A DNA stretch of 23,839 bases from a virus. The notes under the pieces were generated by a model. That model made no database searches and was not told where the DNA came from. It was given only the letters and a program-made list of their open reading frames with translations. Shown piece by piece: positions 1,799-23,453 of the stretch; position 1 is the first letter of the stretch; every line of letters begins with the position of its first letter. The translations under genes were made by a program, and so were the position numbers. The DNA lies in IMG/VR virus record IMGVR_UViG_3300035698_000679, positions 1-23,839 of that record; one strand, 5' to 3'.

Positions 1799-3931
1799 AT
1801 GCGAGTAGTAGTCGATATTGAAAACAGCGTTAGTTACCCTTGGGAGGACTCACCTAAAGACTCCGATATCACACCATTCCATCCAGACAACCTGCTGGTA
1901 TCTGTGGGGTTTCAGGACGTAGACACAGGGGAGTCAGCGTACTATTTTGTGAATCATGTTGAAATTGAGACTAACATATTCCAAGCACGTGACGATATTC
2001 AGGGGTGGCTAGATAAGGCTACCGTCCTGATTGGGCACAACCTCAAGCATGATGTGATGTGGTTACAAGAGTGTGGCTTACAACCATCAGCAGACGTAGT
2101 ATTATACGACACAATGTTCTTTGAGTATGTCATGGCCCGAGGTCGTAAGTTAGGATTCTCTCTCGATGCTTGTGTCACACGTCATGGTCTATCCGAGGAG
2201 GGCAAACTTGATATCATGACTGAGTACTTTAAGCAGGGGTATAATACACACAACATGCCTATAGCTGATCTGGAGACTTATGGTCGTCAAGACGTAGACA
2301 TTACTGCTAAGCTATACTTGCACCAACAAGAGCAACTAAACAATGATACCACAGGTAAGACAGCTTACATGATGACTGCGGTAGACTTGATGAATGACTT
2401 TCTACCCGTGATCATTGAGATGACAACAGCAGGTGCGCCTATTGATATGGACTTGCTAGACGAACTGAGTGGTACACTAGCAGCAGAGCGAGACCAGCTA
2501 CGTCAGGAACTACAGCACCAAGTCCGAGACCTGATGGGGGATAAGCCGTATAGCCTAACCTCTCCTGATGATCTGACCTGTATCTTGTATTCCCGTAAGG
2601 TAGCTAACAAGAAGGCTTGGGCTGTGACCTTTAACATTGGGGAGGAACAACGAGGTCACGTCAAGAAGAAGAAACGCCTACAGATCTTTGGTCCCGCCCG
2701 CTTTGCTCGTATTGTAAATGATATGCCTGTAGTACAGCGTACCAAGGCTGAGAAGTGTCAGACCTGCAAGGGCACTGGGCTCATCCAAAAGATCCGTAAG
2801 GATGGTAGCCTATACAAGAACAAGAACAAGTGTCCTGTGTGCTCAGGGGTAGGAATAAACTATATCTACACCGGTGAGACTGCGGGATTAAAGCTCAAGC
2901 CTAAGAATCTACACGCCACTGCTAATGGTTTTGCTAGTAATAAGGATATTATCGAAACCTATGCTGAGGATGTGCGAGTAACTGATGAAGCTAAAGCCTT
3001 TATGGTTCGGCTCAATCGATACAACAAACTCAACACATGGGTGGACACATTCCTTGCAGGCATTCGTAAGTACAGTCACGATGGTATTCTGCACACTAAC
3101 TTTAACCAGTGTGTAACAGCAACAGGTAGGCTATCAAGTAGTAAGCCTAACATGCAGAACCAACCTAAGCGGGATGCCAGCTTCCTCATTCGTCGAGTCT
3201 TTATATCTCGATGGGCTGACACAGGGGGTATGCTGGTAGATGCTGACTTTGGACAACTAGAGTTTCGTGTAGCAGCTCTACTGGCTCAATGCCCAGCAGC
3301 GATCAAGGCTGTAACGGAGGGGTTGGACATCCACACCCTGACTATGCAGTTCTACCATGGGGAATTGGAGTACCAACCTGATGTGGTGTTACCTACAATG
3401 ACCCGACAGGAGGCTAAGGCTGAAACCTTTGGTCCTCTATACGGTAAACAGACTGCGTGGACTAAGCAGTTCTACAAACTATTCCCGGGTATTGAGCTCT
3501 GGCATACAAAACTAATGGAGGAGGCAGTCAATACTTTGGAGATACGTACCCCGTCAGGGCGTATCTATGCCTTCCCTACGTGTCAACGATTCCAGAAGCA
3601 GGATGGTACTCAGTTAGTATCAGGGCACACACAGATCAAGAACTATCCTGTACAAGGATTTGCTACAGGGGATATGGTGCTCTTGGTACTCATAGATATC
3701 TATAGGTACTTACGTAAACACAACGCGAAGAGTCGTCTTATCTTACAGGTTCATGATAGTGCTGCTACAGATATGCACCCAGATGAGCAGGAGCTTGTGG
3801 TTGACGCTTACAAGTATGCCTTCGGGAATATCTACCAGCATGCCAAAGACCGCTTTGGTATTGATGTTAACGTACCTCTATCCTTCGATCTAACAATCGG
3901 ACCTAACTGGCTAGACCAAGAGAAAGTTTAA
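1799..3931 (+). CDS. Family A DNA polymerase with 3'-5' exonuclease and thumb zinc insertion
   Basis: A 710-residue Pol I-type replicative polymerase. The N-terminal DnaQ-like proofreading domain has its acidic residues: Exo I D6/E8, Exo II NLKHD (D85), Exo III YGRQD (Y161, D165). The polymerase half has motif A DADFGQLEFR (catalytic D483, E487), motif B R536-K540-F544-Y548 and motif C VHD (H652, D653). Position 544 corresponds to E. coli Pol I F762, and this enzyme keeps Phe where T7 has Tyr. Motif C reads HDS instead of the usual HDE. Between the thumb segment LTSPDDL and the next helix lies an insertion of roughly 100 residues with two CxxCxGxG units, C320/C323 and C345/C348, which look like a DnaJ-type zinc site. 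It is not at the position of the T7 thioredoxin-binding insert. No 5'-3' exonuclease domain is present. The gene follows the acidic protein by three bases. Confidence 0.95.
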   Translation: MRVVVDIENSVSYPWEDSPKDSDITPFHPDNLLVSVGFQDVDTGESAYYFVNHVEIETNIFQARDDIQGWLDKATVLIGHNLKHDVMWLQECGLQPSADVVLYDTMFFEYVMARGRKLGFSLDACVTRHGLSEEGKLDIMTEYFKQGYNTHNMPIADLETYGRQDVDITAKLYLHQQEQLNNDTTGKTAYMMTAVDLMNDFLPVIIEMTTAGAPIDMDLLDELSGTLAAERDQLRQELQHQVRDLMGDKPYSLTSPDDLTCILYSRKVANKKAWAVTFNIGEEQRGHVKKKKRLQIFGPARFARIVNDMPVVQRTKAEKCQTCKGTGLIQKIRKDGSLYKNKNKCPVCSGVGINYIYTGETAGLKLKPKNLHATANGFASNKDIIETYAEDVRVTDEAKAFMVRLNRYNKLNTWVDTFLAGIRKYSHDGILHTNFNQCVTATGRLSSSKPNMQNQPKRDASFLIRRVFISRWADTGGMLVDADFGQLEFRVAALLAQCPAAIKAVTEGLDIHTLTMQFYHGELEYQPDVVLPTMTRQEAKAETFGPLYGKQTAWTKQFYKLFPGIELWHTKLMEEAVNTLEIRTPSGRIYAFPTCQRFQKQDGTQLVSGHTQIKNYPVQGFATGDMVLLVLIDIYRYLRKHNAKSRLILQVHDSAATDMHPDEQELVVDAYKYAFGNIYQHAKDRFGIDVNVPLSFDLTIGPNWLDQEKV

Positions 3932-4153: not shown

Positions 4154-4987
4154 ATGACAAGCACCGAACTTACAACACTAAGCCCCGAGGCACAAGCCAT
4201 TGTGGATTCTGCACTCAAGGGTGACATTGGGGTATCCAACACAGGACAGGGTTCTTTCTTCCCTGTGTTAGGTATTGAACAACAATACGAACAGGCTCTA
4301 CCACGTGGTTCATTCCACATTGGTGAGGAGTTATCCGGTCTGGAGGTTACCTTCCAACCTCTAGCATCATACATGAAGGTACTACGCCGAGGTGATGCAG
4401 ATGTTAACTATCGTGTAGAGGCTGAGACTGTGTTCTTTAGCGACTGGGGTGCTGAACAGCTAGACACCCTAGGTGGTATAGGTTGTGGCCGTCTGTTTGG
4501 ACGTGACGCTAAGGTACTATCTCCTGATGAAGCTAAGGCCAACAAGGAACTTGGTCGTCTCTTTTTGTATGTCTTCGGTATGGCAGAGTTTGCAGGAGCT
4601 GAACCAGCTCTATGTGTACTACGTCTATCTGGGGGTAAGATGGCTCGCTGGACTGATGCTACAAACCGTAAGGTGATTAACTCAAACATCACTGAACGTA
4701 AGTATAAGCTTAGTGCGGTGTCCCCTAAGAAGGATCCTTTGCTGACCAAGCAGCAGCAGCAGGAAGCTAGTGCTACATATCTGAATCTAATTGTCGAGCC
4801 TATCATGGGTGAGATTGTATCGCCTGCCTCGTATATGCCAGCGATTCAGGAGGTGGCTAACTATGTGATTGACGATCGTACTAAGGTATTATCTAAGCAT
4901 GATACAGCTAAGGCAAGTCGTAACCGAGCTGATGGTGTGTATCTCGACGCTGGGTACCAAGACGTAACTATTAACGAGCTCAACTAA
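4154..4987 (+). CDS. Unknown protein in the ssDNA-binding-protein position
   Basis: A 277-residue soluble protein not recognised by sequence. It lies between DNA polymerase and a recombination-type nuclease, directly behind a strong promoter. T7-like phages commonly place their abundant single-stranded DNA-binding protein in such a spot. The middle is beta-rich with alternating hydrophobic residues, compatible with an OB-like fold. However, it lacks the acidic C-terminal tail typical of gp2.5/SSB proteins and ends TINELN. There is a QQQQ run near residue 197. The ribosome site is GGAG 4139-4142, 11 bases before the ATG. An ssDNA-binding or annealing role is inferred from position and expected expression only. 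The long antisense frame in this region is a shadow. Confidence 0.88.
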   Translation: MTSTELTTLSPEAQAIVDSALKGDIGVSNTGQGSFFPVLGIEQQYEQALPRGSFHIGEELSGLEVTFQPLASYMKVLRRGDADVNYRVEAETVFFSDWGAEQLDTLGGIGCGRLFGRDAKVLSPDEAKANKELGRLFLYVFGMAEFAGAEPALCVLRLSGGKMARWTDATNRKVINSNITERKYKLSAVSPKKDPLLTKQQQQEASATYLNLIVEPIMGEIVSPASYMPAIQEVANYVIDDRTKVLSKHDTAKASRNRADGVYLDAGYQDVTINELN

Positions 4988-5041: not shown

Positions 5042-5917
5042 ATGGAATTAATTACAGAACGACTAACAGCCTACATCTCTAATGCTATCAATGGTGACGT
5101 TAAGGAAGTGCCTGACGAGCTACTCGATGAGTTTGCTAGTGAGTGTCGGCAGGTACTCAAGAACGCACTGACAGATGGCCCACAAGAGTTTCGTCTCCGC
5201 ATGTCCAACATTGGTAGAAATCCTCGTGGTCTATGGTTAGACAGCCAGCATGGTAGGGAGAAGCTAACCCCATCTGTGTGGGTGAAGATGACCTATGGAC
5301 ACTTTATTGAGAAGATGTTTATCACGCTACTTAAAGCTGCGGGTGTAGAGATTGAACAAGCCAACGAGAAAGTAACATTAGAGCTACGAGACTACACCCT
5401 CAAGGGTGAGTACGATGTTAAGATCAACGGTAAACACTATGATTTTAAGACAGCTTCCGATTGGTCTTACCAGAATAAGTTTATTAACGCTGATACCCTG
5501 TTAGCTGAGGATTCTTTTGGGTATGGGGGTCAGGCCGTAGCCTATGCGCTAGCTGATGACACCCCATTCGGGGGGTGGCTTGCGATTAACAAGGTGACTG
5601 GTGAGTACAAGCTAGTAGATGGGGCATGTCTTAACACTCTTCGAAGTCACATGAAGTACCTTGATAAATTTAACTATGCAGTTGATCTTATTGATGGTAA
5701 GGTTGCGGTCCCTGCCTGTACTGGGATCGAGAATGAGTCGTACTACCGTAAAGAAACAGGCAACAAAATTATTGGCAAGTCCTGTCAGTTTTGTTCCCAT
5801 AAAAACAAATGCCACCCTACCGCTATACACCGTCCTAGCGTAACGAGTAAGGCAGCTAACAAACCATGGGTGTGGTACACTGATTTAGTTAACACAACAG
5901 GAAACACAAATGTATAA
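5042..5917 (+). CDS. PD-(D/E)XK nuclease, Cas4/RecB-like, with C-terminal Cys cluster
   Basis: A 291-residue nuclease of the Cas4/RecB-type PD-(D/E)XK family, likely an exonuclease for host DNA breakdown, recombination or end processing, filling the role of T7 gp6. Visible motifs are SNIGRNPRGLWL near residues 55-66, GHFIE with E90, GEYD with D125, DFK (D134, K136) and QAVAY (Q164-Y168), matching motifs I to III and the QxxxY motif. The C-terminus has C226, C248, C251 and C257, the last three spaced as in the iron-sulphur cluster of Cas4/AddB enzymes. In those enzymes the fourth Cys normally sits N-terminal, at the place occupied here by N60. GGAG at 5027-5030 is the ribosome site. The stop overlaps the nrdA start by 8 bases. 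Confidence 0.85.
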   Translation: MELITERLTAYISNAINGDVKEVPDELLDEFASECRQVLKNALTDGPQEFRLRMSNIGRNPRGLWLDSQHGREKLTPSVWVKMTYGHFIEKMFITLLKAAGVEIEQANEKVTLELRDYTLKGEYDVKINGKHYDFKTASDWSYQNKFINADTLLAEDSFGYGGQAVAYALADDTPFGGWLAINKVTGEYKLVDGACLNTLRSHMKYLDKFNYAVDLIDGKVAVPACTGIENESYYRKETGNKIIGKSCQFCSHKNKCHPTAIHRPSVTSKAANKPWVWYTDLVNTTGNTNV

Positions 5918-7700
5918 TATTAATATTGATTATTCGAGGGACGCACTACTCAGTGAAGTAGCACTTGTTACCCTCAACGACCGGTATCTCCTGCCTCATG
6001 AGGGCTCTCCTCAAGATGGTTTTGCTAGGGCTGCCTCAGCCTTTGCGGATGACCAAGAACATGCTCAACGTATCTATGATTACGTGAGCCAACAATGGTT
6101 TATGTTCAGTACCCCTATCCTAAGTAACGGTGGGACTGAGCGAGGTATGCCTATTGCCTGCTTTGGTGGGTATGTTGCCGATAGTCGTGAGGGTCTCGAT
6201 GCCCACTTCCAAGAGAATGGTTGGCTATCCTCTATGGGGGGTGGTATTGGTGGCTACTGGGGTCATCTCCGAAGTGATGGTCAGGCTACCAGCAAAGGCA
6301 GCCAATCAACCGGTAGTATTCCCTTCATCAAGATTGTAGATAGCCAGATGCTAGCCTACTCCCAAGGTGGTACACGCCGAGGTAGTTACGCTGCATATAT
6401 GGATATGTCACACCCTGAAATTGAGGAGTTTATTAATATTCGCCGCCCTACTGGAGGTGATCATAACCGTAAGTCCCTCAACCTTAACAACGCTGTAGTA
6501 ATTACCGATGCGTTTATGCGTAAGGTCACTGGGGAAGACTCTGATCCTATGTGGAATCTTATTGATCCCCATAGCAAGCAGGTAATAAAGCAGGTAAACG
6601 CAACTGTCCTATGGCGTAGCCTATTGACTACTCGTGTAGAGACAGGTGAACCCTACATCATGTTCGGGGACACCGTAAACGCTGCACTACCACAACCTCT
6701 CAAGGATCGTGGACTACATGTGTACCAATCAAATCTCTGCTCCGAGATTACATTACCTACTAACAAGGATCGTACCTTCGTATGCTGCCTGTCTAGCTTG
6801 AACTTGGAACGATGGGAAGAGTGGAAGGATACTCAGATTGTTGAGGATGTCGTTCGATTCTTAGACAATGTGATTACATGGTTTGTTGAGAACGCACCCG
6901 CACCACTAGCTAAGGCTGTATATTCTGCACAACAAGAGCGTAGTTTAGGTCTAGGTGCTATGGGCTTTCATAGTCTACTACAGCGTAATAACATTCCTGT
7001 GGAGACTGCGCTAGCTATATCCCTCAACCGTAAGGTATTCAAGACTATCCAAGAGCGGGCTATTGCTGAGAGTAAACGCCTAGCAATTGAGCGGGGTGAG
7101 GCTCCAGACATGGCAGGTAGTGGTATGCGTAATGCACATCTAATTGCCGTAGCTCCTAATGCTACGAGTAGTTTACTTGCAGGTACTAGCCCCGGAATTG
7201 AACCATGGAATACTAACTCTTTTACCCAGAAGACATTATCAGGCTCATTTATCATGAACAACCCGCGTCTTCAGAAGGTACTTGACCAAGAAGAATCCAA
7301 TACCCACCTAGATATGGAGGAGATCTGGAAGTCTATCCGTCAGCACGGTGGTAGTGTTCAGCATCTTAGCTTCCTTGATGCCCAGTACAAAGAGATATTC
7401 AAGACAGCTAGTGAGATTGACCAACAATGGTTAGTTGAACATGCAGCTCAACGCCAAGAGTTTATCTGTCAGGCTCAAAGTCTAAATCTATTCTTTGTAC
7501 CTACAGAGGTGGCTGGCCAAGTGGGTATGCCAATGCAACACATTGAACAGGTACATATCCAAGCTTGGAAGAAGAAGGTCAAGACACTATACTACCTTCG
7601 CTCTACTGCGGCATCTCGTGTCGAGAATGTAAGTGTCCAAGTAGCCCGTAAACACCTAGCCGTTACTGATGATAATGGCTGCTTAGCCTGTGAAAGTTAA
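5910..7700 (+). CDS. nrdA: Class I ribonucleotide reductase, large (alpha) subunit
   Basis: The catalytic subunit reducing ribonucleoside diphosphates to deoxy forms for phage DNA synthesis, working with the NrdB encoded next. At 596 residues it is short for NrdA. It opens directly in the catalytic domain and lacks the N-terminal ATP-cone, so dATP shut-off by that route should be absent. Key residues are present: C84 (E. coli C225 counterpart), N275-L-C277-S-E279 with the thiyl-radical Cys, C292 (C462 counterpart), the PNATSS and PGIEP motifs, the paired Tyr in YYLRS for radical transfer, and the C-terminal shuttle pair C591/C594 in CLACES. There is no intein or frameshift. AGGAAA precedes ATG 5910, which overlaps the nuclease stop. 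NrdB starts three bases after the stop. Confidence 0.96.
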   Translation: MYNINIDYSRDALLSEVALVTLNDRYLLPHEGSPQDGFARAASAFADDQEHAQRIYDYVSQQWFMFSTPILSNGGTERGMPIACFGGYVADSREGLDAHFQENGWLSSMGGGIGGYWGHLRSDGQATSKGSQSTGSIPFIKIVDSQMLAYSQGGTRRGSYAAYMDMSHPEIEEFINIRRPTGGDHNRKSLNLNNAVVITDAFMRKVTGEDSDPMWNLIDPHSKQVIKQVNATVLWRSLLTTRVETGEPYIMFGDTVNAALPQPLKDRGLHVYQSNLCSEITLPTNKDRTFVCCLSSLNLERWEEWKDTQIVEDVVRFLDNVITWFVENAPAPLAKAVYSAQQERSLGLGAMGFHSLLQRNNIPVETALAISLNRKVFKTIQERAIAESKRLAIERGEAPDMAGSGMRNAHLIAVAPNATSSLLAGTSPGIEPWNTNSFTQKTLSGSFIMNNPRLQKVLDQEESNTHLDMEEIWKSIRQHGGSVQHLSFLDAQYKEIFKTASEIDQQWLVEHAAQRQEFICQAQSLNLFFVPTEVAGQVGMPMQHIEQVHIQAWKKKVKTLYYLRSTAASRVENVSVQVARKHLAVTDDNGCLACES

Positions 7701-7702
7701 TT

Positions 7703-8650
7703 ATGCCTGATCTACGACAGCCTAGAACAATATATAAGCCGTTCGAGTATCCTTGGGCCTATGAAGCTTATAAGGAACAGCAGCGGATGCATTGGCTACC
7801 TGATGAGGTACCTCTGCGTGAGGATATATCCGATTGGAACCTACGACTTAATGCTTCTGAAAAGAATCTGCTGACTCAAATCTTTCGGTTCTTTACTCAA
7901 GGAGATATCGCCGTAGCCCAAGGGTATCTACACACTTACATCCCCTTGTTTGGGCACAAACCTGAATTAGCTATGATGATGAGTAGCTTTGCCAGTATGG
8001 AGGCGGTACATATTGATGCCTATAGTCTCTTGCTAGACACTATTGGGATGCCGGAGACTGAGTACCAAGCCTTTACAAACTACGAGGCTATGGCGGCTAA
8101 GCATGAGTACCTCAGTGGGTATGGAGATGACACCTCACCAAGAGGTATCGCTAAGGCTCTAGCTGTATACTCAGCATTTACTGAGGGTCTACAGTTATTT
8201 AGCAGCTTTGCCATCCTTCTTAACTTCCCTCGTCATGGTAAAATGAAGGGCATGGGACAGATTGTCACATGGTCTATCCGTGATGAGAGCCTGCATGTAA
8301 GCAGTATGATTAAGCTGTTTGAGACGTACATCAACGAGCACCCGGAGATATGGACTGATGATTTTAAAAAGGAGCTCTATGATATATGCCGCAACATGGT
8401 CACGTTGGAGGAAGCTTTCATTGATCTGGCGTTTGAGCAAGGCAGTGTGGAAGGACTTACCCCCGAAGACGTCAAAGGTTATGTACACTACATTGCGGAT
8501 AGACGTTTACTACAACTAGGGCTCAAGCCTAACTATGGTGTCTCGAAGAATCCCCTAACATGGTTCGATGAGATGGTCAATGGTGTAGAGCATGCTAACT
8601 TTTTTGAAGCCCGAGCTACAGAGTACTCAAAGGGTAACTGTATCTGGTAA
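7703..8650 (+). CDS. nrdB: Class I ribonucleotide reductase, small (beta) subunit
   Basis: A 315-residue ferritin-like radical-generating partner of NrdA. All expected metal ligands are visible: D68, E100 and H103 (MEAVH), E161, and E195 with H198 (RDESLH). The radical Tyr is present as Y107, four residues after H103, so this is a tyrosyl-radical type rather than a Phe-containing (Ic) or metal-free type. The C-terminal tail EYSKGNCIW is the segment that docks into the large subunit. The sequence FTQGD...YIPLF resembles common bacterial and phage NrdB. It starts three bases after nrdA, probably by coupled translation because no strong ribosome site is seen. Downstream lies a 23-base gap and a gene with an unclear start. 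Confidence 0.96.
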   Translation: MPDLRQPRTIYKPFEYPWAYEAYKEQQRMHWLPDEVPLREDISDWNLRLNASEKNLLTQIFRFFTQGDIAVAQGYLHTYIPLFGHKPELAMMMSSFASMEAVHIDAYSLLLDTIGMPETEYQAFTNYEAMAAKHEYLSGYGDDTSPRGIAKALAVYSAFTEGLQLFSSFAILLNFPRHGKMKGMGQIVTWSIRDESLHVSSMIKLFETYINEHPEIWTDDFKKELYDICRNMVTLEEAFIDLAFEQGSVEGLTPEDVKGYVHYIADRRLLQLGLKPNYGVSKNPLTWFDEMVNGVEHANFFEARATEYSKGNCIW

Positions 8651-14033: not shown

Positions 14034-14522
14034 CTATACCATCCTTCCATCAGCATCAAGACCTAGTACAGCCTTGTAATCAAACACAGGGCATGTCTTA
14101 CCTGCATCAAATTCAATGTGGCCATGGAAGGTAAGTTTATTGTCATAGGCTTCATTGATAGTCTGACAGAGCTGCTTGAGTTTAAGTAGCGACTGAGGTG
14201 TGAAGTGTTTACTACCACCTACACAGATAGCAATAGAGTTAGTATTGTAGTTCTTCTGAGCAGCAGGGATTTTAGTAAGAGGTCGTCCTGTCTGAAGCAC
14301 ACCATCCTTACGGATGTAATAATGGTAGCCGACATCGGCAAACCTACGGGCAATATGCCAAGCTCGGATAACAGCTACGTCATCATGGGTAGGTGTGTCA
14401 CTATCACTACAGTGAACAACCACCCTAGTGACGTTACGTTTAGGGGCGTTGAAGGAGATAGGGGTAGGCTCAGTTAGAAGTTTTCTAACGTGATGCCAGA
14501 GTTGTACTATGTATCGTGTCAT
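14034..14522 (-). CDS. N-acetylmuramoyl-L-alanine amidase endolysin (T7 gp3.5-like)
   Basis: A 162-residue zinc amidase of the Amidase_2 family that cuts the bond between MurNAc and L-Ala in peptidoglycan at lysis. Zinc ligands by comparison with T7 lysozyme are H37 (VVVHCS), H135 (HGHIE) and C144 (GKTCP). K142 and Y66 (GYHYY) match the catalytic Lys and Tyr. It carries about 30 more N-terminal residues than T7 lysozyme, basic but without a signal peptide, so it would depend on a holin. T7 lysozyme also inhibits its RNA polymerase, but no phage RNA polymerase is seen in this window. The start overlaps the end of the giant ejection protein gene by 38 bases. Confidence 0.92.
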   Translation of the reverse strand: MTRYIVQLWHHVRKLLTEPTPISFNAPKRNVTRVVVHCSDSDTPTHDDVAVIRAWHIARRFADVGYHYYIRKDGVLQTGRPLTKIPAAQKNYNTNSIAICVGGSKHFTPQSLLKLKQLCQTINEAYDNKLTFHGHIEFDAGKTCPVFDYKAVLGLDADGRMV

Positions 14523-17500
14523 TATATTCTCGTTTCCATTGGTTATATGTTGGGCGTTTATTCATGTCGTATCGGTTGTCTTCATAGTCCTCGGGTAGGT
14601 ATCTACCTGTAGATAACATATACGCATTCCTACGCATACGAGCGGATCCCCCGTCTTTACGTCTACCGGCTTGGCTATCCATAACCTCGTAGGCTGCCCG
14701 CTCAAAGTCACGCTGGTTGATTGCCTCTCGTAGTCCTGTAAATTTAGAGAACCTAGTCTTACCTAGCTGATAGGACATACTTGTTAGGGCTTCTTGGCGA
14801 GCTGGGGTTAACTCATTAAAGGTAGGAATAAGATCCTGTGCATCACCAATAGCGATGTCATAAGAGACCTGTAGTAAGCTCTCCGCTTCATCTAAGGTAA
14901 TGGATACCTGATTACTGTGCACTGCATCAAAGTCTTTAGTCATACCTGCACGTTCCCACGAGGCTCTAGCTGTAGAGTCATCCATGTTGAAGCCATATCC
15001 AACAGTACGAATACCTCCGGTATCATCGTATGCCTCTGTACGAAAGCCCTCATCCTCTTTGATAAGCTCAAGCAGTGATGGTGTCGTCTCAGGGCGGGCT
15101 CCCGGAGTACGAGTACGAGTTGGTCCTGATGTACGCTCACCCCCGATAATATCAATCTCCTCTTGAGATAAAGTATCTTGGGATTGGTAGCTCATAGGTT
15201 GGGTCCGAGAGAACTCTAGTACCCCTGTAGTTAACAGCTCTAGTGTGTCACGAACGCTATACGCTGTACCCTCACCAGATTCAAAGAAGAACTTGTATTG
15301 TTCTGGGATGTCCCCCTCGATAAAGTTAGTAACTGGAAGCCCTGCTTTCGAGGATTCATTAGCACGAATCACCTCAATAGTATCGGCTGCACCTAACATG
15401 TGCATCAGTTGAGTCTCTACCTTATTAGGTCGATCACCCGCAATGTTTACGAACTCATCATGCTGGTCTCGTAGGTGTTCCCCGATTAAGATGGCTTTGA
15501 CATAGGTCTCCTTTAGGTCAGACTTGTCTATATCGTGTAGTGACCCGTACTTCTCAAATAGCTGGTCCATAGGGCCTGAGAGTTCTGGGTCTAGTTGGGC
15601 GATAGATAGTAAGGCTGATTCACTAATACCAGTCTCCTGTGCTGCCCAACCAATAGCATCGTAGAACGCAGCGTCTGCACCTTGAACATCTAGTATACTA
15701 TCATCACCAGTATTAGTGTCGTATAGATAGGGAGTAGATACACCACCGTCAGGGTCTTCCCTGCTTGGACGGGCTAAGGGTTTAGAGCTCATCATATTAG
15801 TAATAACTCTGGTGATAGGGCTATACGGCGTACCGAAGTTTTGAATCACAGAGGGTCCATATTCTAGCCCAGCAACACGTTCCATTACAGTATCAAATAC
15901 ACCATTGAGCTGCTTATCAATTGTCTGTATAGCCTCTAACTTACCTACATCACCAAGGAGATCCCGCTCCTCAGTAGTATATATGTCAGCATCCTTCCCG
16001 ATAATGATTGCCTTCTTGAGATTCCTAAGTCGTTTAATCTCCTCACGGAATGGTTCGATGGTTTCGTAAACCTCAATGAATGGTGCACTCTCCTGCTCTA
16101 GCTGGGCTAATTCTTCAGACACTTCCAGAGCGTCAGCCGGTGGGACATGAGTTTCTGTTGGAGTGATGTGGCGCTGCATAGCGTCTATCTGATCTATGAT
16201 CGGGCGGATCTCTCTGTAGATATTATAGTATTGTTCCGCAGATCGGTTATCACGGCTACGTTTAACAAAGCGTTGTGTGAGCATAGAATCTTCAAAAGTA
16301 ATCGCAGGCTTCTCAGGAACTAAGCCCAGTGTTGATGCTGTATAATCGGTTACAGCACGGAAGATTGGGAATAGATTAGGGACTTCATTATCGAACACAT
16401 GCTGCATGATGATAGGCGAGAAGCTGATACCTGTGGTATTGTATACGCTTTGTGCAAACTGAGCAATAGAGGGACTCGTATATTCATTAGCCTGTAGGTG
16501 ATCAGGTAGATCCTCTAAGCCTTGTGGGACAAGAGGGAATCCACTCTGAGTGGTATTAGTTGATACATCAACTAGCGTCTGAACTACTGGCATCTTACGG
16601 CCGGGTAATTGACCTGTAGCGTATTCAACAAACTCCTTAATAATACCTCCCCTAGTTACCTCCTCCTTAAAGATAGCTTCGGCGGTATCTGGGTTGTACG
16701 CTGTGATGGCCGCTTTCAGTTGGCCCTGTATAATCTGATCTACCACCTGTATCACACCGTCATACAGGACACCAGCGAGGCGTTCTGGACTTACGTAGGG
16801 GCGAGGACGGGCTAGGCTTATATCATCCGAGATGGGGATGTTCTGTTGGATACGTTGAGTAGTAACACTCTCTTTGAGGTCGGGGTTAGCCCGCTCAGTT
16901 ACCCAAGACATAAATCCTATTGTGGCTGCGGCTGAGGCAGCCCTATCAGTTTCAAACCTAACACGGCGAGCATACCTGTCAATAGAGTTCACGGTAGTAC
17001 GTGCGAATGGTATCTTATACACCCACTTAGATACACCGGTAGCCTTAGAGCCTCGGGTCTGAAAGCGTACACCTAGCTCTAGGGCTAAGGTCAGAGACTC
17101 TTCATGTTTTCTACCTTGTGCACGGAGTTGGTTATAGTATGCAATCCTTGGTGCAAAGTCAGCCCGCTGTAACATACCGTATACAATATCTGTACCTCTA
17201 GTCCAAGCTGACTTCTCTCCGTGGATAGACTTTATGAAATCTGACATAAGCTTCTCTGGGTCCACGGCATTCGAGGTCTCTAACCACGGCACCTGATTAC
17301 CGTAACCGGCATTAGCATGTAACTCATCATATAGTTTCGGTTGGGTCTCTTTAGCTGCGAGTGCTTTCATCGGACCAAGGATATCAAACTTACGAACCCC
17401 CTTCACGTCACTATAGAACATCTTATCGATACTCTCTTGCATCCATGTCTTGAGGGCAAAGTCAGGAGCGGCTACAATAAGGACACGGTATGCCATACTA

Positions 17501-19926
17501 ATATCGTCTACACGTCTCTCACTCCAGTTCGGGTTTCCTCGCTGCATAGAGGCACCGGATAGAATGTCGTATATTTCTTTGTTTTGAATAGGGATGTCTA
17601 AGCTACCTCCATTAAACTTGAGGGTAACTGTACGTCCTTTCACCTGAGCCTCAGACACACCTTCAGGTAGAATCTCGTGAACCTTGATATGCTTACGCTT
17701 ACCGCTTGTCAGGTCCTCGATGGCCTTAGTAATCTTTGTCTTGTCTCCCGCGAAGAACATACCGAATACACCTTCATCAAAGGTGTTGTGGATAGTATCA
17801 AATATATTACGGTTAACGGCATTGGTTACGACCTGAGCACTTGTGAAGTACGCGTACTGAGCCACTACTTGGAGGAAGCTCTTGTTCTCTTTACTACTGA
17901 TCTTACGTTTCTTGAAGGGAACCACACCACCAGATAATGCACCTGCCACAGGGGTTTTAGGGTCGTAGTTAGGAACAACCTTAAACTCAGGAAGATAATT
18001 AGGGTGAGCCTCACGCCATGTTTGAGCTAGGGCAGGGGAGATCCCACCACTATCCGTCAGTTGTGTTAACATGAAGTTATGGTAAATAGACATCTGCTCA
18101 GTGAGCTGACCAGCCCAAGGCTTAGCGAGTAGTGCAGCTTCCGTAGCTTCTGCATCAGTCTGCTTGATAGTAGCACGTAGCTGTGATTGAGCTAGCATAG
18201 TGTCTAGGGAATCAGCAATCTCAGCACGGAGTTTCTTCGGTGCCTTCTTTATGATAGAGGTTTTGAGTTTAGTCATTGTCTCAACAGCACCATCCATTAC
18301 TAGATCATCATCAATCTTGCTGATGGCATTAGGGCCTGTGAGTGTACCGTCAAAGAACTGTATGATCTCGTCCTTATTACGCTTGTAGAATAGGGCAGTC
18401 TTTCGTTGGCGCTTGATCTGGTAATCTAATTGCCCTTTACGTAGGGAGCTGATGTTAGGATCTTTAAGCTCAACACGAGCTGCTTTAATCTTATCAGCAG
18501 CCTCACGACCTGCGGTTTGAATAGCCTCAGAGATACCGACCTGAGCTTCTGTCATGGTACGCTTAATGTTACGATAGTTATCTAGGGCGTTACGAGCAGC
18601 TAGTAGCTCTACGATCTCTTTATCCGTGGCACCCTCAGCTAACGCCGTGCTGAAAGCCAGCTTAGGAGTAGCCACATCTGTGGTCTGTAGGAATCCAGTC
18701 TCGAAGTTAATACCCCGAGCATAGTCCTCATCTACAAGACTCTTGACGAACCCCTGAATAATTGGACGTAGACGTTTGGATACCTGATGAGGAGCCCGCT
18801 CCACTACATCAGTAGCTCCAAAGATCTTTGTATTGGTGACACGATTACCGAAGCGGTAGATCTTATCGAGGATCTCAAACTCATCAACGTAGTTAGTACG
18901 AAACTTACTAACTCCAGATAGAGAAGTCATACCGTCCTCAGCAACCTTCATACTCCGTTGTAACTCAGGCTGGAGTACAGCGTCACTGAAAGCGTATCCT
19001 ACGGTTTGAGGCACATCTGCTTTACCAAACACTCCAGCCGTGTACTTCATTCCCCCAAGTGCTGTACCTAGTAGTATGTCATCTAGTATGGCAACCCCTT
19101 TGTAGGTACCGGGGCGAAGCTTATCCTCTTCATCTGCGAATAGACTACCAAACGTAGTATCGGGACTCTGTACAAACCAAGAGCCTAACGCAAAGTCTAC
19201 ATCAGTATTGATAAGTTCCTTACCCACTTCTTTTGCCTTGAGCTTAGAATCAGTGATGTCTGGGATAGCAGTCTTACGAGTAGCTTGACGTTGGAGTGCC
19301 CCCTTAGTCGCGACGGTAGTACCGGCACCCATGATAGATAAGAAGTCAGTGACGTTATCCTCACCTTCGTTCTCCTCAAAGAAGGGGAACATATCTTGGA
19401 AACTTTCCTTGATACCTGTTGAAGTATCCTCAGCAATATCTGCCATGACGCCCTGCCATTTACGGCTCCAACTACTATCTTCACCGAGAGCTTCGTCTTT
19501 CACCGCATCGCCCTGAAAGAGCAGGCTAGCCACTCCTGTGGGCGTAGCCACCATACCAGCAAGTGCTTTGACACCTGCGTTTCCACCCAGCTTCAAGCCT
19601 TCTGTGGCGACTGCCATAGCAGTAGACCCAAACGTGGCTTGAGCACCCCCAGCTTCATCTTCGACAGCTTGACTTACATCAGAGAGTGCCTCTGTGATAG
19701 GTGCAGTAACGGTATCGACAGCACTATTCACTGATGTGAATGTATCCATCATACTAATAGCACCTTGTGTGAACAGCCCAAAGCTGTCCTCTACAGGTGT
19801 CCCTAGTTCAGATTCTATCTCATCAAACTCATCAAGGGGTGATACAGGTTGAGGCCCTAGTAGCGCCTCGGCATCCGTAGTAGGTGTAGACTCTGGTTCG
19901 GGTCCAAGTAAATCGAGGTAATTCAT
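14485..19926 (-). CDS. Giant ejection/internal virion protein with C-terminal GH24 lysozyme domain
   Basis: An 1813-residue protein, by size and position an internal virion protein ejected with the DNA, like T7 gp16. Near the C-terminus, about residues 1615-1785, lies a T4-lysozyme-like GH24 domain with E1626 (EDEGF), D1635 and T1641 (GGIRTVGYGF) in the same spacing as E11, D20 and T26 of T4 lysozyme. It should therefore cut peptidoglycan during entry. The N-terminal 200 residues are acidic with weakly hydrophobic Ala/Gly helices. A central region (LELGVRFQTRGS... IPFARTTVNSIDR) recalls large polyvalent-protein domains such as LPD38, from memory. Much of the rest is charged helix. In T7 gp16 the muralytic domain is N-terminal, so the order is reversed here. 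No frameshift is seen. Confidence 0.9.
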   Translation of the reverse strand: MNYLDLLGPEPESTPTTDAEALLGPQPVSPLDEFDEIESELGTPVEDSFGLFTQGAISMMDTFTSVNSAVDTVTAPITEALSDVSQAVEDEAGGAQATFGSTAMAVATEGLKLGGNAGVKALAGMVATPTGVASLLFQGDAVKDEALGEDSSWSRKWQGVMADIAEDTSTGIKESFQDMFPFFEENEGEDNVTDFLSIMGAGTTVATKGALQRQATRKTAIPDITDSKLKAKEVGKELINTDVDFALGSWFVQSPDTTFGSLFADEEDKLRPGTYKGVAILDDILLGTALGGMKYTAGVFGKADVPQTVGYAFSDAVLQPELQRSMKVAEDGMTSLSGVSKFRTNYVDEFEILDKIYRFGNRVTNTKIFGATDVVERAPHQVSKRLRPIIQGFVKSLVDEDYARGINFETGFLQTTDVATPKLAFSTALAEGATDKEIVELLAARNALDNYRNIKRTMTEAQVGISEAIQTAGREAADKIKAARVELKDPNISSLRKGQLDYQIKRQRKTALFYKRNKDEIIQFFDGTLTGPNAISKIDDDLVMDGAVETMTKLKTSIIKKAPKKLRAEIADSLDTMLAQSQLRATIKQTDAEATEAALLAKPWAGQLTEQMSIYHNFMLTQLTDSGGISPALAQTWREAHPNYLPEFKVVPNYDPKTPVAGALSGGVVPFKKRKISSKENKSFLQVVAQYAYFTSAQVVTNAVNRNIFDTIHNTFDEGVFGMFFAGDKTKITKAIEDLTSGKRKHIKVHEILPEGVSEAQVKGRTVTLKFNGGSLDIPIQNKEIYDILSGASMQRGNPNWSERRVDDISMAYRVLIVAAPDFALKTWMQESIDKMFYSDVKGVRKFDILGPMKALAAKETQPKLYDELHANAGYGNQVPWLETSNAVDPEKLMSDFIKSIHGEKSAWTRGTDIVYGMLQRADFAPRIAYYNQLRAQGRKHEESLTLALELGVRFQTRGSKATGVSKWVYKIPFARTTVNSIDRYARRVRFETDRAASAAATIGFMSWVTERANPDLKESVTTQRIQQNIPISDDISLARPRPYVSPERLAGVLYDGVIQVVDQIIQGQLKAAITAYNPDTAEAIFKEEVTRGGIIKEFVEYATGQLPGRKMPVVQTLVDVSTNTTQSGFPLVPQGLEDLPDHLQANEYTSPSIAQFAQSVYNTTGISFSPIIMQHVFDNEVPNLFPIFRAVTDYTASTLGLVPEKPAITFEDSMLTQRFVKRSRDNRSAEQYYNIYREIRPIIDQIDAMQRHITPTETHVPPADALEVSEELAQLEQESAPFIEVYETIEPFREEIKRLRNLKKAIIIGKDADIYTTEERDLLGDVGKLEAIQTIDKQLNGVFDTVMERVAGLEYGPSVIQNFGTPYSPITRVITNMMSSKPLARPSREDPDGGVSTPYLYDTNTGDDSILDVQGADAAFYDAIGWAAQETGISESALLSIAQLDPELSGPMDQLFEKYGSLHDIDKSDLKETYVKAILIGEHLRDQHDEFVNIAGDRPNKVETQLMHMLGAADTIEVIRANESSKAGLPVTNFIEGDIPEQYKFFFESGEGTAYSVRDTLELLTTGVLEFSRTQPMSYQSQDTLSQEEIDIIGGERTSGPTRTRTPGARPETTPSLLELIKEDEGFRTEAYDDTGGIRTVGYGFNMDDSTARASWERAGMTKDFDAVHSNQVSITLDEAESLLQVSYDIAIGDAQDLIPTFNELTPARQEALTSMSYQLGKTRFSKFTGLREAINQRDFERAAYEVMDSQAGRRKDGGSARMRRNAYMLSTGRYLPEDYEDNRYDMNKRPTYNQWKREYNDTIHSTTLASR

Positions 19927-21689: not shown

Positions 21690-22032
21690 TGGTTGGGCCT
21701 CCCTGTGAAATCTGGTAAATAATACGGAGCCATTCAGCATTAGCGTCCGAAGCATCCGCAGCGCGGATAGCTTGGTTGCTTTGATGGGCTCGTTGGGTTT
21801 CGTTAATTGTACCTGAGGCTGTATCAATATCCATCTCATCAATATAATTAGTCTGTGGGGACATTACACCACCACCTGAGGCACCACCACCACTACTAGA
21901 GTCACCACTACTTAGTAGTGATACCCCTTTCTTAGCGATGTCAATAATACCTTCACCGTCAGTTAGGTCTACAAAAAAATCATCTACGTCATTGTAGACG
22001 TCTACGATATCTCCAAAAAAGTCATCGAACAT
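21679..22032 (-). CDS. Small acidic protein with Gly/Ser linker, unknown
   Basis: A 117-residue protein. The N-terminus is highly acidic (MFDDFFGDIVDVYNDVDDFF), then comes a helix IIDIAKKGVSLL, a Ser/Gly linker (GDSSSGGGASGGGV) and a helical C-terminal part ending AEWLRIIYQISQGGPTNAA. The two-part design with a flexible linker suggests an adaptor or scaffold-like virion component, which is inference. Its ATG overlaps the stop of the Q/N-rich repeat protein (TAATG), and its end overlaps the next gene by 11 bases. No family is recognised. Confidence 0.75.
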   Translation of the reverse strand: MFDDFFGDIVDVYNDVDDFFVDLTDGEGIIDIAKKGVSLLSSGDSSSGGGASGGGVMSPQTNYIDEMDIDTASGTINETQRAHQSNQAIRAADASDANAEWLRIIYQISQGGPTNAA

Positions 22033-23453
22033 TAGCTGTCATCTCCAAACATGTTGAGTATGTCGTGCAGTAAATCTGCGTACCCTCGTCCCTCTGCTAC
22101 TTCAGCAGCGTTCTGAAAGTTCTGGTTATTCAAACTTGTGTTGTATTCGAACTCCGTAGCTGCAAGAGCTAACCGGAGGTTACGTTCTTCCGCGGTTTGA
22201 GACGCACTGAAAGACCACTGTGCATCATCACGAAGAGATTGCCATAGTGCATTAAGGCTATAAGAGCTAAGGTTAAATCCATTTTGTACATTCAATTGGT
22301 TGGTAGCGTTAATAGACGCTGTGTTAGCGGTATTGATATTCCTACGCCAAGTGGCGTTGGCTTGATCAATTTGAGTTTGCATGTTAGCATTGAACTGTTC
22401 CCGTTGGAAGCTGGTAGTAGTATTAAACTTTTCTACTGCCACACGTTGTTGTTCATTAAACATGTCTGCTTGAACTTCAATCTGTGCTCCAGCCAGTTCC
22501 ATACGATTAGCTTCAGCAACATTGAATTGTTCCATACCAGCAACGCGGTTAGCATTCTGGGTAGTAATGTCTGATACAAGCTGGGCTTGGAACATTGAGA
22601 TCTGTTGACCGCTTGAGGCATTGAATTGTTTAGCTGCATTGATGGCTGCTTGATCAGTCAGTAGTGCCTGTTGTCGGAACTGAGCGTTAGTCAGTGAGGT
22701 CTGTTGACGGTTAGCTAAATTAGCCATATCCATTTGGAAATACGTCTGGGCATCAGGGGCTGCAATCTGAATAGCAGACTGTTGGATGGCTTCCGTGATA
22801 GCCCCTATACCAATAGAGCTGTTGCGTAGGCCACGAGCAGCCATAGAATCATTAGCTAGACGAGCAGCACCTTGTGCCCACTCGGGAATAGCATTACCAT
22901 CAGTATCGTTATACAGTTTTGTTAGTTGACCTACCATTGTAGCAAGCTCGGATACTGTACCTTGAGCCGCTTGGGCTGTAGCAGTAGTCCCTACATCTGT
23001 GCTAAGTGCAGCGTTGTATTGTCCAGCCGCAGGATTTAAGTAGGTCATACCTGTGTTAGGGTCAATGGCTAGGGCGTTAGTTGGGGCAGCCATAGGAACC
23101 ATAGTGGGGGCGGCTATTGCAGTAGGTGCAGCCACCGCAGTAGGAGCTACCATTGGGTTGTAATTAACCAGCTCACCTTGTTGAACTTGCATGGTCTGGG
23201 GTACCATCTCTGTACCTACAGGTAGGACTGGGTTTTGGATCTGGTTAGCTAGATACTCGTTTACTGTGTTAGGAGTAGACAGTGGGGTAGCTTCCCAGCC
23301 AGCACCCTGTTGGGATACCACAGCATCGTACTGTGCCTTAGCTGCGGGGTTAGCTTGTAGCCAGCTGTCTGCCTCTCCAGCACCAAAGGCTTGGCCTGAG
23401 TACCCGAGGTTGACGGCTAGTTGGTGTGCGTTATTATATGGGTTAGTACTCAT
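22032..23453 (-). CDS. Q/N-rich hendecad-repeat virion protein
   Basis: A 473-residue protein very rich in Ala, Gln and Asn with no Cys. Residues 100-125 hold an Ala-Pro-Thr repeat, probably a flexible linker. Residues 243-396 consist of fourteen back-to-back 11-residue units beginning with a hydrophobic-x-N pattern (MAN, LTN, LTD, QFN, MFQ, and so on). Hendecad spacing favours long, nearly straight helices that pack as right-handed coiled coils, so a fibrous or tube-lining trimer or higher oligomer is likely. Located just before the ejection-protein genes, it may be an internal core, tail-tube-lining or needle-like component; the exact place is inference. The start overlaps the stop of the upstream membrane protein (ATGA). 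Confidence 0.8.
   Translation of the reverse strand: MSTNPYNNAHQLAVNLGYSGQAFGAGEADSWLQANPAAKAQYDAVVSQQGAGWEATPLSTPNTVNEYLANQIQNPVLPVGTEMVPQTMQVQQGELVNYNPMVAPTAVAAPTAIAAPTMVPMAAPTNALAIDPNTGMTYLNPAAGQYNAALSTDVGTTATAQAAQGTVSELATMVGQLTKLYNDTDGNAIPEWAQGAARLANDSMAARGLRNSSIGIGAITEAIQQSAIQIAAPDAQTYFQMDMANLANRQQTSLTNAQFRQQALLTDQAAINAAKQFNASSGQQISMFQAQLVSDITTQNANRVAGMEQFNVAEANRMELAGAQIEVQADMFNEQQRVAVEKFNTTTSFQREQFNANMQTQIDQANATWRRNINTANTASINATNQLNVQNGFNLSSYSLNALWQSLRDDAQWSFSASQTAEERNLRLALAATEFEYNTSLNNQNFQNAAEVAEGRGYADLLHDILNMFGDDS
22266..22727 (-). repeat. Fourteen tandem 33-base units encoding 11-residue repeats
   Basis: Units start at residues 243, 254, 265, 276, 287, 298, 309, 320, 331, 342, 353, 364, 375 and 386 of the host protein. 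Examples are QFNASSGQQIS, QFNVAEANRME and KFNTTTSFQRE. The third position is Asn or Asp in 12 of 14 units (Gln in one, Gly in another). The DNA copies have diverged, so this is an old protein-level repeat rather than a recent expansion. Confidence 0.8.
23079..23147 (-). repeat. Ala-Pro-Thr linker repeat
   Basis: Encodes residues 103-125 of the Q/N-rich protein, with APT at 103, 109, 115 and 123. The first three are 6 residues apart (APTAVA, APTAIA, APTMVP) and the DNA copies are similar. It probably encodes an extended linker between an N-terminal globular part and the helical repeat. Confidence 0.7.

Follow-up and report, generated by a model that had tools for sequence, protein, structure and literature searches.

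Phages of the HMO-2011 type are among the most abundant in the sea, and their DNA polymerase serves as the marker gene of the group. Between its exonuclease and polymerase domains this enzyme carries a partial DnaJ central domain with two CXXCXGXG motifs (PMC6918029, PMC8528129, PMC9038755), and the presence of the two motifs in the insert has been used as a criterion for membership (PMC9038755, PMC8528129). According to papers that cite the original description, the insertion had already been published for HMO-2011 itself, whose record carries a PF00684 note on the polymerase. The thumb insertion considered here is not new: it is a published signature of HMO-2011-type phages, by which they can be recognised. 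In the literature on the group, we found no biochemistry of the insert. With the insert located at the thumb tip, across helix H1 from the T7 loop, what had been a vague 'DnaJ domain' label becomes a claim on processivity or partner docking that can be put to the test.

A divergent HMO-2011-type polymerase

The window, by which we mean the whole stretch of DNA analysed, is a 23.8-kb phage fragment that makes up its entire record; capsid and terminase large subunit genes are absent from the fragment. Its polymerase gene is the following:

1799 to 3931, + strand: family A DNA polymerase with 3'-5' exonuclease, 710 aa, HMO-2011-type (Pfam DNA_pol_A, 1.2e-49; best full-length phage matches of HMO-2011 type; AlphaFold2 model)

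AlphaFold2, supplied with 63 aligned sequences, models the whole enzyme at a pLDDT of 90 and a pTM of 0.86, and the fold matches Bst, Klenow and apPol, that is, the polymerase I fold. Judging by its sequence, the window polymerase looks active: the group alignment shows no variation at D6, E8, D85 and D165 of the exonuclease or at D483, K540, F544 and H652-D653 of the polymerase. The fingers (window 3419-3460, residues ~541-554) are ~8 residues shorter than in most relatives directly after the O helix, reading LYGKQTAWTKQ where most relatives have LYGASGFGRTEAEAAYYKQ.

Several observations place the enzyme in the HMO-2011 group. Its best full-length phage relatives are the HMO-2011, CRP and HTVC033P phages, with an identity to isolates of 35-38% over 96-100% of the length (the group threshold being at least 25% over at least 80%), and a partial DnaJ domain lies between the exonuclease and polymerase domains, with CQTCKGTG and CPVCSGVG as its two CXXCXGXG motifs. 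The genes follow the HMO-2011-type order: helicase, polymerase, then a block of small-protein, exonuclease, endonuclease, RNR, ThyX and MazG-type genes, after which the virion genes lie on the opposite strand, as they do in HMO-2011-type phages. One of these virion genes (22032-23453) matches HTVC033P, CRP and HMO-2011. In the tree a long branch, joined at an open fork within the group, leads to the window polymerase; on sequence grounds it is a divergent HMO-2011-type member.

Two further features of the fragment may be recorded alongside. Positions 5910-8650 encode a two-subunit ribonucleotide reductase (alpha and beta) of class I type; as HMO-2011's own enzyme is described as class II (PMC9038755), this suggests that the module has been exchanged. 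On the minus strand, 14485-19926 encodes a virion protein of 1813 aa, of which residues ~1614-1766, close to the C terminus, form a lysozyme-like domain. Outside this domain it has no relatives in the phage collection. HMO-2011 and two related contigs have the matching lysozyme stretch as an open frame of its own, ~160 aa long.

Used alone as a query against phage records (E up to 1), the window insert matches HMO-2011-type polymerases only, and the insert of CRP-235, searched in the same way, adds two chance-level Cys-rich matches. In genome contigs, the zinc pair was seen only in polymerases from marine assemblies, at an HMO-type identity of 36-37%; these contigs probably belong to phages and were binned with bacteria. 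A CxxC in the thumb is absent from 67 of the 68 other polymerases of genome contigs, the exception being an HMO-type variant (L104); nor did we find the Cys module in Zobellviridae and the other phage polymerases examined, some of which have other loops at the same place. In two Zobellviridae (L015 and L017) the polymerase gene is split into two open frames, one for the exonuclease and thumb and one for the palm; in L017 a small additional frame lies between them.

Position, conservation and identity of the thumb insertion

The elements of the thumb relevant to what follows are:

2564 to 2590, + strand: thumb helix H1, residues 256-264, adjoining the start of the insertion and corresponding to Pol I FNLSSTKQLQTILFEK (AlphaFold2 secondary structure; alignment to Pol I and T7)
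2594 to 2932, + strand: thumb-tip insertion, residues ~266-378, ~105 residues longer than E. coli Pol I (profile alignment to Klenow, direct alignment)
2642 to 2677, + strand: short beta-hairpin, residues 282-291, ending in KKKKR (residues 289-293, positions 2663-2677), in the long insert variant only (alignment, AlphaFold2 secondary structure)
2735 to 2881, + strand: predicted zinc ribbon, in which strands 313-319 and 353-361 flank the four-Cys knuckle (AlphaFold2)
2756 to 2779, + strand: first CxxCxGxG, CQTCKGTG (C320, C323), aligned to DnaJ motif II; Cys invariant in 91/91
2816 to 2830, + strand: basic stretch KNKNK, residues 340-344, before the second motif (sequence)
2831 to 2854, + strand: second CxxCxGxG, CPVCSGVG (C345, C348), aligned to DnaJ motif III; Cys invariant in 91/91
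2984 to 3070, + strand: long thumb helix following the insertion, residues 396-424 (AlphaFold2 secondary structure)

A profile built from 11 related polymerases aligns to Klenow until about Q594 of E. coli Pol I (~residue 266 of the window polymerase) and picks up again at about K651 (~residue 428), leaving ~162 residues between the aligned blocks in the window polymerase versus ~57 in Pol I, or ~105 extra. Comparison with Taq gives the same picture, and direct alignment to E. coli Pol I and T7 gp5 puts the insertion site at Pol I ~594-607, the thumb tip, past the helix that follows FNLSS578; in the window polymerase it comes after YSLTS251 and helix H1. The preliminary description had claimed a thumb insertion of about 100 residues, and all three alignments uphold it as a true insertion relative to the ordinary Pol I thumb. 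That description also placed the insert between a thumb segment and the helix before motif A: the thumb assignment stands, and the site itself is corrected to the interval between H1 and the helix of residues 396-424, well before motif A. Long Cys-free loops occupy the same site in three other phage PolAs (L002, L015 and L017), so that the thumb tip may be a general site for insertions.

The T7 site is a different one. Alignment to Pol I and T7 gp5 shows the extra segment of T7 preceding FNPSS334 and helix H1, and because the HMO insert comes after H1, the two sites differ. A T7-type insertion lies between helices H and H1, before FNPSS; the window insert does not. The two thus fall on opposite sides of H1, which bears out the earlier suggestion that this is not the thioredoxin-binding insertion of T7. 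Homology to the T7 loop was considered and rejected on the same ground: MAFFT columns set the loop and the zinc insert opposite one another, but the order of the FNxSS motif separates them.

Conservation was assessed in 91 polymerases, namely the window polymerase and 90 homologues from isolates and IMG/VR contigs (~37-41% identity to the window). C320, C323, C345 and C348 are invariant in every one, as are G325, G327, G336, G352, A362, G363, G377 and F378. With four Cys and eight other residues kept in 91/91, the insert is not a product of chance. The two motifs occur in the translated open frame exactly as first reported, with 21 residues from C323 to C345; this spacing recurs in 90/91 polymerases, the remaining one having 33. 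The sequence between the invariant residues varies, as does the length: the region of residues 262-378 measures 101-106 aa in 56/91 polymerases (short form) and 116-119 or 128 aa in the other 35 (long form, which adds a hairpin ending in a basic KKKKR-type stretch). Of the flanking basic stretches described initially, KKKKR and KNKNK, both are indeed present, with the qualification that the KKKKR hairpin is limited to the longer variant. L104, a further HMO-type relative from a marine genome bin, has lost the first Gly pair and kept all four Cys, which suggests, at the level of sequence, that the main constraint is metal binding.

The insert is also unusually basic, carrying a net charge of +19 against -28 for the rest of the window polymerase. 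Family medians over the 91 polymerases are +11 and -12, respectively, and in 69/91 the insert is the most basic segment of its length.

What kind of module is it? Pfam DnaJ_CXXCXGXG matches the window polymerase at 24.5 bits, below the curated cut-off of 32.7, and a partial match to the same model is found in all 63 group members scanned. The profile of the insert alone, compared with DnaJ zinc domains along the lines originally proposed, finds motifs II-III of the E. coli DnaJ zinc domain (1exk) as its best PDB sequence match (E=0.0047), followed by Ydj1 and then antitermination protein Q. TIGR02349 DnaJ matches at 157-197, in the same register (motifs II-III). AlphaFold2 models the isolated insert at a pLDDT of 86 overall, rising to 94-95 around the Cys, and the best fold matches of this model in the PDB (DnaJA2, BSD2, UvrA, Anti-TRAP and Ydj1) are weak, the best at E=0.13 and none significant alone, yet consistently of one kind of zinc knuckle. 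With Pfam, PDB profile, TIGR02349 and fold matches in agreement, the DnaJ-type module claimed at the outset finds support from each side. The insert is best explained as a DnaJ-type four-Cys zinc ribbon with one predicted zinc site, equivalent to DnaJ motifs II+III. It has two CXXCXGXG motifs only, rather than the four motifs and two zinc sites of the DnaJ pattern, and a J domain gave no match in Pfam or NCBIfam scans.

What the predicted zinc ribbon might do

The Pol I thumb lies with its tip across the minor groove of the duplex product, and Minnick et al. reportedly found in 1996 that deletion of Klenow residues 590-613 reduced DNA affinity and processivity. Because the ribbon is, on our predictions, zinc-stapled, strongly basic and situated at the thumb tip, it would most simply extend this grip on duplex DNA. 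In this picture zinc would staple a two-stranded, strongly basic ribbon extending the thumb, and the likely task of this ribbon would be to hold the duplex product as it leaves the active site, making synthesis more processive with no need for a host clamp of the thioredoxin type. In plant organellar polymerases, thumb insertions rich in lysine have been modelled beside duplex DNA (PMC7699545, a review). The analysis shows what the module is, where it sits, that it is conserved and basic, and that its fold is predicted with confidence; zinc binding, DNA contact and a role in processivity are what we infer for the insert, and we regard the chances as evenly balanced that the zinc-stapled basic ribbon at the thumb tip grips duplex DNA and raises processivity. 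A little short of that we would place the broader proposition that it amounts to an independent device for processivity built into the enzyme, or else to a new port for docking, which takes the place of the thioredoxin-type clamp at a site other than that of T7; if true, a phage group that ranks among the most abundant in the sea is served by it.

Against a DNA grip it can be said that zinc ribbons serve equally often as surfaces on which proteins dock. Variable sequence between the invariant residues would fit a scaffold, and a surface adapted to a particular partner would show it too. The main rival is that the ribbon is a docking platform for a replication protein, be it a phage SSB, the helicase-primase or a host protein, much as the thumb loop of T7 receives thioredoxin, gp2.5 and helicase-primase. 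In T7 and in mitochondrial polymerases alike, processivity factors are recruited by thumb insertions (PMC7699545; Hamdan 2005). In HMO-2011-type phages a basic insert could pair with the acidic C-terminal tail of the product of the gene after the polymerase, which in the window is:

4154 to 4987, + strand: downstream neighbour, 277 aa, candidate single-strand-binding protein and conceivably a partner (acidic tails in relatives; HTVC033P homologue)

This gene has a homologue in HTVC033P, and among isolates its relatives are confined to HMO-2011-type phages. The last 25 residues of its relatives have a median charge of -7 (61/71 at -4 or below), an acidity that recalls phage SSBs, whereas the tail of the window copy is hardly acidic at -1, which weakens the idea of a partnership here. 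The neighbour also has no recognised SSB domain: domain searches assigned it to no SSB family, and its product is a candidate SSB on the strength of the tails in its relatives. On balance we consider docking a possibility to be taken seriously, albeit a tentative one that is less probable than a grip on DNA.

Two further readings carry less weight. The ribbon might be a purely structural decoration of the thumb tip, in which zinc stabilises an insert that is free to drift and matters little for synthesis. The thumb tip is variable in phage PolA (L002, L015 and L017 have longer Cys-free loops there); if drift were tolerated, however, one would hardly expect the Cys, their spacing, A362-G363 and G377-F378 to be strictly kept across 91 diverged polymerases, which argues for a selected function, and we think this reading improbable. 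Alternatively, the sequence match to the DnaJ zinc domain might denote a chaperone-like or redox module, or recruitment of host DnaK as by DnaJ in lambda replication, to which authors have pointed (PMC9038755). Yet no J domain was detected, which leaves the ribbon without a known way of reaching DnaK; of the two zinc sites it represents a single one; and its fold is shared by Anti-TRAP, UvrA, BSD2 and antitermination protein Q, none of them Hsp40s. Given the absence of a detectable J domain and the presence of half a zinc domain, a DnaJ-like chaperone function is unlikely by sequence; we rejected it as the main explanation and would give this whole family of readings very little credence.

Comparison with known systems

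Like the insert, the thioredoxin-binding loop of T7 gp5 is a large basic thumb insertion in a phage family A polymerase; unlike it, the T7 loop lies before H1, is without the four-Cys module and bears no sequence similarity. Plant organellar polymerases and Pol gamma likewise have extra thumb segments, some of them lysine-rich, that have been tied to DNA contact or processivity factors, but these are unrelated in sequence and the review that covers them describes no zinc motif (PMC7699545).

The Cys-rich domain of DnaJ/Hsp40 (PF00684; 1exk) has the same CxxCxGxG pair, as motifs II-III, at similar spacing, whereas the insert has one of its two zinc sites and sits in a polymerase in which J and client-binding domains were not detected. 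Antitermination protein Q, Anti-TRAP (RtpA), BSD2 and UvrA each offer one DnaJ-like zinc knuckle with a weak sequence or fold match to the insert; they are other proteins with other functions, and the likeness is confined to the knuckle. The closest systems are the HMO-2011-type polymerases themselves (HMO-2011 gp12; CRP-1/2/3/345 and others; HTVC033P). Although the window polymerase is only 37-41% identical to the sampled members, lies on a long branch and has a small fingers deletion after the O helix, it shares with them the order of exonuclease, zinc insert and polymerase, the insertion site, the two CXXCXGXG motifs, their 21-residue spacing and the invariant Cys.
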